Source of the DNA: Candidatus Omnitrophota bacterium
GTDB taxonomy: Bacteria; Omnitrophota; Gorgyraeia; Aquiviventales; Aquiviventaceae
Assembly (NCBI GenBank): GCA_023247255.1
Contig: JAHFGV010000015.1
Span: 1-55,952 of the forward strand
DNA: 55,952 nucleotides
Direction: 5' to 3'
Part shown: positions 6,181 through 49,406 of the stretch, piece by piece
Layout of the letters: each line of letters opens with the position of its first letter
Position numbering within the stretch: the first letter of the stretch is position 1
The notes under the pieces: generated by a model
The model's database searches: none
What the model was told of the DNA's origin: nothing
The model's input: the letters and a program-made list of their open reading frames with translations, nothing else
Position numbers and translations under genes: made by a program

Positions 6181-6359
6181 TCCAGTACTCACGCCTGTTT
6201 CATGTTTCATGTGTTATGTGTCATGGAAAGCAAAAGGGGCTCTTTGGCCCATACTTAAGATGCCTATTTATTTTCTGCTTTTTCATGACACATAACACAT
6301 GACTCATGACACAGACGTGAGCGCTGCCACTAATCTCGATGCATTTTGCAAAACCTCAG
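6181..6359 (-). repeat. CATGA-rich MITE copy 1
   Basis: Reverse complement of CTGAGGTTTTGCAAAATGCATCGAGATTAGTGGCAGCGCTCACGTCTGTGTCATGAG...; one end divergent. Confidence 0.75.
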
Positions 6360-15304: not shown

Positions 15305-15574
15305 CTGAGGTTTTGAAAAATGCATCGAGATTAGTGGCAGCGCTCACGACTGTGTCATGAGTCATGTGTCAGGTGTCATGAAAAAGCAGAAAATAAATAG
15401 GCATCTCAAGTGTGGCCAAAGGGCTCCTTTTGCTTTCCATGACTCATGACACATAACACATGAAACAGTCTTTCATAACACATGACTCATGAAACATGAC
15501 ACAATCCTCATTCCTTCTCTTGGGAAATGACACAACACTCGGTCAACGCGTTGGCTATTTTTGCAAAAGCCCAG
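15305..15574 (+). repeat. CATGA-rich MITE copy 2
   Basis: CTGAGGTTTTGAAAAATGC ... GGCTATTTTTGCAAAAGCCCAG; flanked by exact ACCTAA/ACCTAA. Confidence 0.88.
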
Positions 15575-23833: not shown

Positions 23834-24098
23834 CTGAGGTTTTGCAAAATGCATCGACCTTAGTGGCCAAGTGGCCCATGGCCAGGAAGAAAGTAAATCA
23901 TGATCCTAAGCTCCAGTACTTACGTCTGTGTCATGTTTCATGGTTTATGTGTCATGAAAAAGCGGAAAATAAACAGGCATCTCAAGTATGGCCAAAGCGC
24001 TCCTTTTGCCTTCCATGACTCATGACACATGAAACATGAAAGATGAAACATGACACAATACTTAAGTCAACGCGTTGGCTATTTTTGCAAAAGCCCAG
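23834..24098 (+). repeat. CATGA-rich MITE copy 3
   Basis: CTGAGGTTTTGCAAAATGCATCGA...TTTTTGCAAAAGCCCAG; flanked by exact TCCTCA/TCCTCA. Confidence 0.88.
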
Positions 24099-31217: not shown

Positions 31218-31438
31218 CTGAGGTTTTGCAAAATGCATCGAGATTAGTGGCAGCGCTCACGTCTGTGTCATGAGTCATGGAAAGCAAAAGGCGTACTTTG
31301 GCCGTGCTTGAGATGCCTGTTTATTTTCTGCTTTTTTCATGACACATGACTCATGAAACATGGCACAATCCTCATTACTTCTCTTGGGACATGACACAAC
31401 ACTCGGTCAACGCGTTGGCTATTTTTGCAAAAGCCTAG
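31218..31438 (+). repeat. CATGA-rich MITE copy 4 (internally shortened)
   Basis: CTGAGGTTTTGCAAAATGCATCGAGATTAGTGGCAGCGCTCACG ... TTTTTGCAAAAGCCTAG. Confidence 0.85.
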
Positions 31439-44731: not shown

Positions 44732-45001
44732 CTGAGGTTTTGCAAAATGCATCGAGGTTAGTGGCAGCGCTCACGTCTGTTTCATGAGTCATGTGTTATG
44801 TGTCATGAAAAAGCAGAAAATAAATAGGCATCTCAAGCATGGCCAAAGGGCCCCTTTTGCTTTCCATGACTCATGACACATGAAACATGACACAGTCTTT
44901 CATAACACATGACTCATGAAACATGACACAATCCTTGTTCCTTCTCTTGGGAAATGACACAACACTCGGTCAACGCGTTGGCTATTTTTGCAAAAGCCCA
45001 G
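44732..45001 (+). repeat. CATGA-rich MITE copy 5
   Basis: CTGAGGTTTTGCAAAATGCATCGAGGTTAGTGGCAGCGCTCACG ... TTTTTGCAAAAGCCCAG. Confidence 0.88.
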
Positions 45002-45621: not shown

Positions 45622-47151
45622 CTACTGCGTCTGCCAGGAGGTCGTGCGAAAGGCGTTCTGCTCGTTCTGCTGCCCCGTCCCGCTGACCGAGAGGGTGCGC
45701 AGGCTCTCGTCGTAGTGCAAACCGCTGACATCGTAAGTCTCGCCATACGGAGACGCCTCCAGGTGAAACCTGTCGCCGGCGACGAACGCGCCATAGAACT
45801 GGGCGACAGGGTCATAGGTATACGCCCCCATATCGTAATAGGCACCCAGGTAGACCATGCCGTGTTTCGAGTAGATCGTGCCGTAGAAGGGGGCGCGCTG
45901 CATGAGTCCGGCCCCACAGCCGTTCCACTGTTGGGTCTGCTCGCGAGGGACTCCCTGATGATAGATCTGTAAATCGCGCGGTTGTTGGGTGGTCGTCACG
46001 AACCCTTGGCGGCTGGATGCGCCCAGCCATCCGGTGTTGACGAAGATGCGATTGTTGCCCCGCGCTTCGATTTTCGCATCATCATGGAGCATGAGCGCCA
46101 TGTCTAGGACATCCCCCCAGCCCGGGACCGGGCCGTCATACCCCGGCCCATCGATATAGAGCTCGCAGCCTTCATCAAGCACGAAGGTCGCGTCGTTCTC
46201 GATCAGCAAGTAGGTGTAGTGCAGGCGCTGCGAGCCGAGGTCGCTGCACGAGGTAATCCCGCTGCTGAGCCGCACTCCGCCTTGATTGGGTGCTGCCAGC
46301 AGATCGGCCGGCACCACGACGTCGGGAAGCTCGGCCGGCAGATTCATATAAGGCTCTTGTTCGATTCCTCCCGTGATCGTGGCCGTCAGCGGAGTCGGAG
46401 ACACCGAGGTGGTGGGCGTGACATACGCCGTTCCGTCAACGGTGACATCCGATGACCAGATCATCAATTGATCGTTAGCAAAGATATCTCCCGCATGGCT
46501 CGGGTTCGCCGGATCATAGGTTTCTTGATAGCTGTCAATTCGCAAGGAGTCTGGGCTCCCTTCAAACCCGTCGATGTCCATGTATCTTCCAAACGCCGCG
46601 TACCGAAACGTGAGCGCCGTGTTTGCCTCCGTTGTCACCCGGACCGCCTGGGAGATGGTGCTTCCGGTGACATTGCCGTGGGCTAGAATGACGGGAGTGG
46701 CGGAGAAGGGGTCTGCCACCGTCACGGTATAGGTGCCCAGTGGGGTGTTCGAACCGTCGGTCGCCGTTAAGGTGATCGGCCCGCGCGCAAAGCATTGCGC
46801 GCCAACACCGATATCGATGCAGGCAGGAGTCCCGGAGATATCCGTCCAGCTTACGCCAAAGAGGCTGTCGTTGTGGTTCAGCTCCCAGAGACCGGTTTGC
46901 ACGCCCGCTTCCGCCAGGTTCACGGCTTGATCTTGAAGATAGGGGCGGGTGGTGGTCGTGAGCACGGTGTGGAAGAAGTTGAGGTAGCCGCTGACGGCCA
47001 ACAGCAGAACTATATTCAACCCCAAGGCCCATAGCAGGAGGAGGCTACCGGTGGGGTTCGTTACGCGAGAGGCCGCTGGCTGAGAATGCTGTATACGTCG
47101 ATGCATGCTCCTGCCCTCCTTAAGAAGAGTTCCCACAAGAAGAGTTCCCAC
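45622..47151 (-). CDS. PilX-like large minor-pilin-associated protein
   Basis: N-terminal TM (GSLLLLWALGLNIVLLLAVSGYLNFFHT) after a basic leader; third gene of a prepilin operon. Confidence 0.55.
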   Translation of the reverse strand: MGTLLVGTLLKEGRSMHRRIQHSQPAASRVTNPTGSLLLLWALGLNIVLLLAVSGYLNFFHTVLTTTTRPYLQDQAVNLAEAGVQTGLWELNHNDSLFGVSWTDISGTPACIDIGVGAQCFARGPITLTATDGSNTPLGTYTVTVADPFSATPVILAHGNVTGSTISQAVRVTTEANTALTFRYAAFGRYMDIDGFEGSPDSLRIDSYQETYDPANPSHAGDIFANDQLMIWSSDVTVDGTAYVTPTTSVSPTPLTATITGGIEQEPYMNLPAELPDVVVPADLLAAPNQGGVRLSSGITSCSDLGSQRLHYTYLLIENDATFVLDEGCELYIDGPGYDGPVPGWGDVLDMALMLHDDAKIEARGNNRIFVNTGWLGASSRQGFVTTTQQPRDLQIYHQGVPREQTQQWNGCGAGLMQRAPFYGTIYSKHGMVYLGAYYDMGAYTYDPVAQFYGAFVAGDRFHLEASPYGETYDVSGLHYDESLRTLSVSGTGQQNEQNAFRTTSWQTQ

Positions 47152-47168: not shown

Positions 47169-47702
47169 CTAGATATTCCGAAACGCCACTTGCGTCGAGA
47201 GGACTCCATCGAATGCATAGCCGCTTTCCATCTGTCGAGCCGATAAGGTGATCGTCACTGCGCGAGGACTCGATGTGTCGAAAGTGACCTGCGTGATTCC
47301 GTGCGCGACAACTTGGACCAGGTTCTCCCGGACGCCACCCCCTGGATTCACGGTCCGCTGCAGAATACCTGTCGCTGCGTTAAAATCGTATGTGAACGTA
47401 TCAGACATTCCGATAAGCGGCGCGCCGTTGACATCGATGGATGGCACCGTGAGAGTTAATGATGTCGCTGTGCTCGTTGCCGTTGTGGCGATCCGACCAT
47501 CTTGGCTCAACAGGCTCATCGCGGTGTTGAGTTGCATTTGCACCACCCCTTGACCGTGGAGAGCGACCAACACTTGAGAAGAGATGTTAGTGGCCCCCAG
47601 GATGATCGTCATCAGCACAAGACCCAATCCGGAGACCATTAGCAGCTCCGTGAGCGTAAACCCCCGCGCGGCGATCTGCGTGCGCGCTCCGTCTCTCTTC
47701 AT
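47169..47702 (-). CDS. Prepilin-like protein (PilW-type)
   Basis: RGFTLTELLMVSGLGLVLMTIILG class III leader. Confidence 0.82.
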   Translation of the reverse strand: MKRDGARTQIAARGFTLTELLMVSGLGLVLMTIILGATNISSQVLVALHGQGVVQMQLNTAMSLLSQDGRIATTATSTATSLTLTVPSIDVNGAPLIGMSDTFTYDFNAATGILQRTVNPGGGVRENLVQVVAHGITQVTFDTSSPRAVTITLSARQMESGYAFDGVLSTQVAFRNI

Positions 47703-47741: not shown

Positions 47742-48227
47742 TCACTGGGATATCAGGGTGCTCACCCGAAATGAACGGTTGTTCGCCAGGGTCACCGTCA
47801 CGATAATCTGCCTCAGGCTCGTATTGACGGACCCGTCACAACCTGGCGGATTTGCCGCGGGATTGTAGTCGCACACGTCAATTGTTCCCGTGGCATCGGT
47901 GATCGTTTCCAATCCATCGCCGATACCATCGGCTGGAGCGGTATCCTGAAACGCCAGCGTCCATTGGCCCGGGCCGACTGCCGTCTGGGCTAGCTGTGCA
48001 AACGGGAGCGTATGGACAAATTCCATCTGCCGTCTCATAGCCGACTTCGCGAGGAGGGCCTGGTTATGCTCGCGGAGGTCTCCCATGCCTTGAGTCATGG
48101 TCGTCAAGATCGCCATGATCCCGCTCGCGACGATGACGAGACTCACCAGAAACTCAAGGATCGTAAAACCTCCAGACAGACCTCCATCGACACGCATCCT
48201 CGCCATCCCTCGGTTGCCCTGTTTCAT
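47742..48227 (-). CDS. Prepilin-like protein (PilV-type)
   Basis: GGFTILEFLVSLVIVASGIMAILTTM class III leader. Confidence 0.82.
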   Translation of the reverse strand: MKQGNRGMARMRVDGGLSGGFTILEFLVSLVIVASGIMAILTTMTQGMGDLREHNQALLAKSAMRRQMEFVHTLPFAQLAQTAVGPGQWTLAFQDTAPADGIGDGLETITDATGTIDVCDYNPAANPPGCDGSVNTSLRQIIVTVTLANNRSFRVSTLISQ

Positions 48228-48296
48228 GGTCCGTTTCCCCGCAATGACTTAGATACGAGACGGCTCGAAACATTTCATGTTTCTTTTCGCTTCGTA

Positions 48297-48345
48297 AAAA
48301 AACCGGGTGCCGAAGCCTGTGGAGGCTCCTCTTTCGGCAACCCGG
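48297..48345 (-). terminator. Intrinsic terminator in the minor-pilin leader
   Basis: Reverse strand CCGGGTTGCCGAAAGAGGAGCCTCCACAGGCTTCGGCACCCGGTTTTTTT. Confidence 0.85.
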
Positions 48346-48440
48346 CGATCCTGTGCAACTCTTTCGGCAACCCGGCGATCCTACACAGGACCCGTGGCTT
48401 TCTGACCCCGGATTACTCCGCCCGCCACTAGAACATTGGC
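48329..48440 (-). ncRNA. GEMM-I (cyclic-di-GMP type) riboswitch-like leader with duplicated 3' strand
   Basis: Reverse strand GUGGCGGGCGGAGUAAUCCGGGGUCAGAAAGCCACGGGUCCUGUGUAGGAUCGCCGGGUUGCCGAAAG; AAAGCCACGGG...GCCGGGUUGCCG is characteristic of GEMM-I. Confidence 0.7.
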
Positions 48441-48761
48441 GGGTCTCCGCGACCCTTGCGCACGGAGAGGTGTGGCGTTATCGTTGAGCGCTACCACTTC
48501 TCAATTGTGTGTGTCACTTACAAGTATGCCTAATCAGCATCGACCGCGTCAATCCATCCTGAGACAAAAATAAAGTCGGTAAAGTCGGTACCGGTTCTCA
48601 TTTTTCCTGAGCGATGCTTTCAGCGGCATTGACGCTGGAAGCATCCAGCGCTACGATACCAAATACCCGCTCTTTAAAATGATACCGGTTCTGACTTTTC
48701 TTGCAGCAAAAAGGAACGGTACTAGTTTTCCATAACGTATCAATAACGCCGTGTGCGAGTT

Positions 48762-49406
48762 TCAAGCGACCAGTCCCTTGAGATGCAACGGATCTCTGCC
48801 AAGTCGAAGATTGAGCAGGACACAAAGTGCGTGGGCCAACAGCTTGCGCACCACGCGCATCGTCAGCTTCAGATGCAGCTTGAAGCCGTAGATGGTCTGG
48901 CCGAACCACTTGCCGTAGCTGGCCTGGCCTCGGAACAGCCGACAGCGATGGGCTCGCACAAACTCACAGATGTGCAGCGGCATGCTGTCGATGATCTGAA
49001 TGAAGGTGTCTTCTGCCCGCGTCAGCGCGTCCAGGAAGCGGCGCTTCAGCCACCCCGTCGCGGCGCATTGCCGCACGAAGTTGGAACGATCCGGCAACCG
49101 CGCAAAGAAGTGGCGCCAGTGTCGGGCGAAGTACTGGTAGATCGCCTTCTCGGTGTTGAGCCCCAGGTACTCGCCGACGACCTCCATGGTCATCACCTCG
49201 CTGTCCGCCAGGCGTGGCAGCGGGCCGCGCTGGCGCAGACGGCGGGCGGGGAACTGGGCTTTGACAAAATCGTCGATCTGACAGAACAGGGTAATGATCA
49301 ACTCGTCGAGTTGCATCGGGTCCTGCGTCTGTGTGTAGACACACACCGGTTGTACTGGCGGGGGACTCTTTTGTCTAGGGAAAAACTCGCACATGGCATC
49401 ATCCAT
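48762..49406 (-). pseudogene. IS982-like transposase with internal deletion
   Basis: LITLFCQIDDFVKAQ...LADSEVMTMEVVGEYLGLNTEKAIYQYFARHW...FGQTIYGFKLHLKLT then jumps to a C-terminal-like segment MRVVRKLLAHALCVLLNLRL. Confidence 0.65.

Follow-up and report, generated by a model that had tools for sequence, protein, structure and literature searches.

A c-di-GMP-I-like RNA of an Omnitrophota bacterium with two copies of its aptamer 3' strand, probably competing for one 5' strand

Tandem arrangements of whole c-di-GMP-I riboswitch aptamers are already known (PMC4759541, PMC9481103), and toehold strand exchange is a described riboswitch mechanism (PMC10907184). Ligand choice in these aptamers follows a simple pocket rule, in which G selects c-di-GMP and A selects cGAMP (PMC9481103). 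A duplicated 3' half acting as an expression platform did not turn up in the literature searched, which lay mostly outside subscription journals.

Here we analyse a locus with such a duplicated half in a contig of Candidatus Omnitrophota; the whole 55,952-nt stretch of DNA that was analysed is called the window. Rereading of the sequence confirms the exact repeat reported in the original prediction (48359-48382 and 48329-48352): the minus strand holds AGGATCGCCGGGTTGCCGAAAGAG twice, at 48382-48359 (A) and at 48352-48329 (A'), identical over 24 nt, with a period of 30 and a 6-nt spacer between the copies. The repeat is absent from the output of a tandem-repeat finder run on the window, probably because the array is less than two copies long. 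Downstream of A' follow TTCGGCACCCGG (H, 48314-48303) and seven T (48302-48296). The terminator segment with A' as its 5' strand folds at -26.9 kcal/mol (z -4.3), in agreement with the earlier claim that the second copy forms the terminator together with the U7 tract. A terminator independent of the aptamer strands was considered and rejected, as A' sits in its stem. The parts of the locus are the following.

48523-48552, minus strand: sigma-70-like promoter match TTGACG-18-CATACT, a match to the consensus only.
48482-48490, minus strand: P1 5' strand of the aptamer (CGCTCAACG), which pairs with the sequence flanking each copy (CGAAAGAG), at duplex energies of -6.9 kcal/mol for A and -6.5 kcal/mol for A'.
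48402-48477, minus strand: aptamer 5' half, with the pocket G 48476 (equivalent to G20) and P2 with a GUAA tetraloop at 48416-48413, from the RF03167 alignment and comparison with relatives.
48421-48468, minus strand: two palindromic hairpins inserted into the P2 5' strand, read from the sequence; the CC-CGGAGTAATCCG-GG that is canonical in relatives, e.g. locus L045, is split here.
48389-48401, minus strand: P, the shared P3 5' strand (AAAGCCACGGGTC), from the RF03167 alignment and P3 pairing.
48381-48388, minus strand: loop toehold, forming 8 contiguous pairs with the bases that precede A' (48358-48351); its final two bases are the first two of the A repeat.
48359-48382, minus strand: A, the first copy and aptamer 3' strand, an exact 24-nt repeat that completes P3 and P1.
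48351-48358, minus strand: toehold complement, directly 5' of A', assigned by covariation; its final two bases are the first two of the A' repeat.
48329-48352, minus strand: A', the second copy, rival for P and 5' strand of the terminator, from the exact repeat and the terminator fold.
48303-48314, minus strand: H, the terminator 3' strand, from the sequence and the terminator fold.
48296-48302, minus strand: U7 tract, from the sequence.
47742-48227, minus strand: gene 1, minor (pseudo)pilin-like, of GspI/PilV type (TIGR01707, E=6e-4, sub-threshold; motif GFTILEFLVSLVIVASGIMAI).
47169-47702, minus strand: gene 2, with a prepilin-type N-terminal methylation motif (TIGR02532, 19.2 bits, cut-off 16.3).
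45622-47151, minus strand: gene 3, 509 aa, with an N-terminal hydrophobic stretch and a PilX-like operon position, from the ORF list; family searches gave no match for it.

Together with the P1 strand, the aptamer 5' half spans about 48490-48402. Several related loci are likewise preceded by a GGCATACTT stretch resembling the window promoter. A transposase-like ORF (48762-49406, minus strand; DDE_Tnp_1_3, E=1e-8), possibly truncated, immediately precedes the riboswitch promoter. Elsewhere in the window, heptamer arrays of CATGACA / TGTGTCA occur at 6196-6313, 15351-15503, 24014-24057, 31338-31367 and 44778-44930.

A whole-window Rfam scan gave no match at or above the Rfam cut-off at the locus. 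With permissive thresholds, the sole meaningful match is RF03167 (c-di-GMP-I-GGC), at 31.9 bits (E=1e-5 for a 501-nt stretch) against a gathering cut-off of 59 bits. RF01051 reaches 29.3 bits against a cut-off of 35 (E=7.8e-4 in a search of the whole genome, where 14 matches have E <= 0.001 and five other loci exceed the cut-off). The resemblance to GEMM-I proposed earlier thus stands as a likeness to c-di-GMP-I RNAs, with RF03167 the best match, and falls short of both Rfam cut-offs. The sister locus C25 scores 60 with RF03167. P2 of the window copy has one non-pair at its base and is interrupted after the first CC by 48 nt forming two hairpins (48468-48444 and 48443-48421), while P2 of the relatives is continuous (CACACCCGGAGTAATCCGGGG). 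This insertion, which the original prediction had missed, may contribute to the low Rfam score and is probably part of its cause.

The remaining aptamer features are in place. P1 and P3 around the ligand pocket are present with either copy, P3 has its bulges, and the GUAA loop on P2 is accompanied by CC:GG in P3. The pocket nucleotides are G48476, of the c-di-GMP type, and C48367 in A or C48337 in A'; the genome encodes seven GGDEF domains. As judged from these sequence features, the window RNA is probably a c-di-GMP-I-like, divergent member of the class, with putative ligand binding.

Several further observations concern RNAs of this class. Palindromic hairpin pairs lie in or beside P2 of several such riboswitches (window 48468-48421; G000:C53:28640-28659, locus L004; loci L008, L010 and L064), and the hairpin CCGCCAATGTTCTA(G)TGGCGG has only two occurrences in the genome, both within such RNAs. 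At L003/L002 (G000:C34:1783-2127) and L005 (G000:C6:1282-1726), two whole c-di-GMP-I-GGC aptamers of almost the same sequence follow one another in tandem; both have long P3 inserts, and each overlaps a terminator of its own. Four one-copy aptamers (L037, L040, L152, L159) are found close before a short membrane-protein-like ORF and have no obvious overlapping terminator; these are possibly translational switches.

The duplication recurs in relatives. Within the order, a P-A-A' pattern matched 32 times, spread over 16 of 28 genomes, whereas the reversed-pattern control matched 0 times; the P-A-A'-H layout is present at five loci of the window genome. The repeat is therefore no artefact. Scanning 85,462 species genomes yielded 36 stretches, 31 of them named Omnitrophota or Omnitrophica and the other five from Desulfobacterales/Deltaproteobacteria (3), Anaerolineales (1, doubtful) and Planctomycetales (1). 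In a sample of the phylum, 15 of 384 genomes match, chiefly from the window's family and one other family; a search of a plasmid collection gave no match. When two copies were not required by the search, 24 of 64 parsed hits still had two (one of them, L150, doubtful), as compared to 1.3% when the downstream sequence was shuffled. RF03167 matches occur in all 27 genomes of the window's family (G000-G026), with up to 25 in one 1.7-Mb genome. For the comparisons below we distinguish 42 two-copy loci that resemble the window locus (type 1), 9 two-copy loci in other Omnitrophota (type 2) and a set of 41 one-copy loci; the Anaerolineales hit L119, whose A' is merely a hairpin arm, and locus L150 were left out as doubtful.

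The placement upstream of pilus-type genes asserted in the original prediction is borne out by the prepilin-like genes downstream of the window locus, and extends to its relatives. Prepilin- or PilX-like genes follow 23/42 type 1, 6/9 type 2 and 2/41 one-copy loci (p=5e-7), the one-copy loci often having shorter downstream sequence; with equal downstream lengths and the prepilin motif only, the link is weaker (9/42 two-copy versus 1/40 one-copy, p=0.015). That two separate lineages show this association with the same kind of gene speaks for a common role.

We compared A and A' as aptamer 3' halves. Both retain the P3 pairing to P, and exchanging the flanks between loci weakens their pairing with the P1 5' strand, for A as well as for A' (0/200 shuffles for each). 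The pair adjoining the GNRA receptor is kept in 39/40 cases for A and likewise in 39/40 for A'. Loop and receptor are matched, GUAA with CC:GG in 17/17 and GUGA/GCGA with CU:AG in 19/20 (p=1e-9, although these sets coincide with two paralogous groups). The retention of the P1 strand and of the tetraloop-receptor pair by both copies was overlooked in the original prediction. The differences are small: a mid-helix non-pair beside the bulge is seen in A at 9/42 loci, in A' at 0/42 and in one-copy loci at 0/41, a mismatch that would ease invasion by A', and pocket-side non-pairs number 1/168 in A and 8/168 in A' (p=0.037). As aptamer strands A and A' score alike, and P1 energies favour A in 13/40 and A' in 18/40; we therefore dropped a decision between ON and OFF by strand quality. 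The best survey scores with RF03167 and RF01051, up to 76.6 and 84.1 bits, belong to two-copy loci matched via A, the latter to P:A of one type 2 locus. These scores and the smaller number of pocket-side non-pairs speak for A as the aptamer strand, although insertion cost biases Rfam towards A. A' is part of a U-tract terminator at 38/42 type 1 and 9/9 type 2 loci; at one-copy loci A itself takes this place in 31/41.

The feature that sets A' apart, and the key to the mechanism, is a covarying extension that the original prediction had missed. At the 42 type 1 loci, the stretch right after P, which falls in the P3 loop when P pairs with A, is complementary to the stretch right before A'. In the window, CUGUG after P pairs with CACAG before A', within eight pairs in all (48388-48381 with 48358-48351). 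We aligned P and its loop without gaps against the pre-A' segment and A' of all 42 loci (alignment A1). The resulting 16-pair P:A' helix is paired in 86.5% of cells, and sliding the partner by 1-3 columns reduces pairing to 29-45%. Cells changed on both sides number 100, versus 8-31 in slid versions and 45 +/- 8 in shuffled ones, the covariation score is 0.352 versus 0.195 in shuffles, and own toehold helices are longer, with 3.67 pairs versus 2.47 +/- 0.15 when pre-A' segments are swapped within the class (0/1000 permutations as long); relatedness and pattern-based sampling inflate the shuffle-type statistics, and the slid control is the safer one. The extension columns are the most variable of the helix, with UA, CG, GC and AU all found there.

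Constrained folding of the RNA before H is made predicts P:A' to be stabler than P:A in 38/42 type 1 loci, with a median energy difference of -5.0 kcal/mol and -12.4 kcal/mol in the window. Type 2 loci show a small difference (-7.9 to +2.2), and among the Desulfobacterota-type hits the advantage is missing in L121 and L122 and present in L126. As far as alignment and modelled energies tell, it is the covarying extension that gives A' the edge over A in competing for P.

These elements suggest a transcriptional riboswitch of the c-di-GMP-I type that uses the second copy of the aptamer 3' strand as its expression platform. P can partner A or A', and A' can partner P or H, resulting in three competing helices, P:A, P:A' and A':H. 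According to prediction and covariation, exclusive structures share a switching sequence and one of them is a terminator (P:A' versus A':H, with P:A as a third partner), as strand exchange demands. Once the polymerase has passed A, P would pair with A and complete the full aptamer, with P1, P2, P3 and a docked GNRA loop. As A' emerges, the free P3 loop would serve as a toehold for its 5' extension, a pairing supported by covariation and predicted energy. A' may then oust A, since P:A' is the longer helix; these dynamics we infer. From sequence and predicted fold, A' doubles as the 5' strand of the terminator, and A' bound to P would be unable to terminate. Fixation of P:A by the ligand should thus favour termination: c-di-GMP would lock P:A, block invasion and leave A' free to terminate transcription before the pilin-like genes (OFF). 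With no ligand, P would hold A' long enough for read-through (ON).

The exchange architecture itself, drawn from sequence, covariation, predicted energies and recurrence, is in our judgement very likely correct. The proposal as a whole, in which ligand binding, the order of events and the OFF direction are our own reconstruction, is tentative, and we would put it just short of an even bet. Of the two readings offered by the original prediction, the competition switch is the better one, in that A and A' vie for a single 5' strand, with the extension favouring A'; an uncoupling of termination from ligand binding is not supported.

The strongest challenge concerns direction. c-di-GMP usually raises pilus expression, which speaks against an OFF-switch and for the opposite assignment. 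In that assignment the ligand aptamer would be P:A': as at one-copy loci, c-di-GMP would retain A' there and so prevent the terminator from forming, and A would be an upstream competitor keeping the unliganded state off. The mid-helix mismatch confined to A would suit such a competitor, and the 11-nt GAAA receptor of type 2 loci has its AUG half before A' alone. Moreover, the predicted minimum-energy fold of the window allows the toehold helix and the terminator to coexist, so that an unliganded P:A' may not resist termination. The one-copy relatives, with A in the terminator, also appear to be built like the pilM ON-switch (PMC9262584). An ON-switch is nonetheless unlikely on balance: the extension favours P:A' even without ligand, defeating the decoy role of A, and A keeps the P1, pocket and receptor pairs, so that ligand captured early by P:A would lead to termination; in type 2 loci P:A reaches up to 84 bits, which weighs in the same direction.

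Since every aptamer feature open to testing is kept by both copies, one 5' half might serve two complete and exclusive 3' halves that both bind c-di-GMP, the early copy terminating and the late copy antiterminating. That such a leader reads the timing of the signal or an intermediate range is improbable. Its explicit non-monotonic form, in which high ligand (early capture by P:A) terminates, intermediate ligand (later capture by P:A') reads through and none terminates, is decidedly improbable, as it needs tuned time windows; we know of no natural band-pass riboswitch.

We give little credence to a window copy that has decayed or become ligand-blind, its P2 insertion having abolished sensing and its repeat acting as a constitutive attenuator only. 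The scores under both Rfam cut-offs could reflect decay, which counts against the strand-exchange OFF-switch, and the 48-nt insertion and the non-pair at the base of P2 fit as well; the promoter match, the GUAA loop with matching CC:GG, P1, both strands and the 8-bp toehold are, however, all intact, and C18, a sister in the same genome, also has extra hairpins. Finally, a neutral tandem duplication, assembly artefact or chance repeat, which the identity of A and A' over 24 nt in the window might suggest, is scarcely credible and was rejected given the same layout in many separate assemblies, the shuffled-tail control, the covarying extension and an A' barely closer to its own A than to the A of other loci (17.3 versus 16.2 of 24 identical).

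If the strand-exchange OFF-switch holds, these leaders have turned a copy of one aptamer strand, fitted with a covarying loop toehold, into an expression platform that occurs naturally and repeatedly. Their design lends itself to tests of the way in which strand displacement determines the logic of a riboswitch. On that reading, a single short duplication might be an easy way for evolution to convert an ON- into an OFF-switch. The window's Omnitrophota family is unusually rich in c-di-GMP-I RNAs, and the two-copy form is tied to minor pilin genes.

Compared to the families RF03167 and RF01051, the locus shares the P1-P2-P3 layout, the GNRA loop on P2, the AAAGC..CGG strand, the GCCGGGTTGCCGAA strand, the pocket G and C and a position before pilus or surface genes, but the window copy lies under both cut-offs, its P2 is interrupted and its 3' strand is present twice. 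The Cd1 c-di-GMP OFF-switch of Clostridioides difficile (PMC9262584) is likewise transcriptional; its aptamer and terminator can coexist, and a competing antiterminator is formed late in transcription. In Cd1, however, the switching strand T forms the antiterminator with A, whereas here T would be a copy of A that competes for P; a switching strand competing for the 5' strand P must resemble A. The pilM cGAMP ON-switch of Geobacter metallireducens (PMC9262584), upstream of pilus genes, uses its own aptamer 3' strand in the terminator, as do the one-copy relatives, but has a single 3' strand and no early copy. Tandem c-di-GMP-I riboswitches (PMC4759541, PMC9481103) also repeat aptamer material within one leader; there whole aptamers are repeated, whereas this leader has two copies of the 3' half alone, served by a single 5' half.
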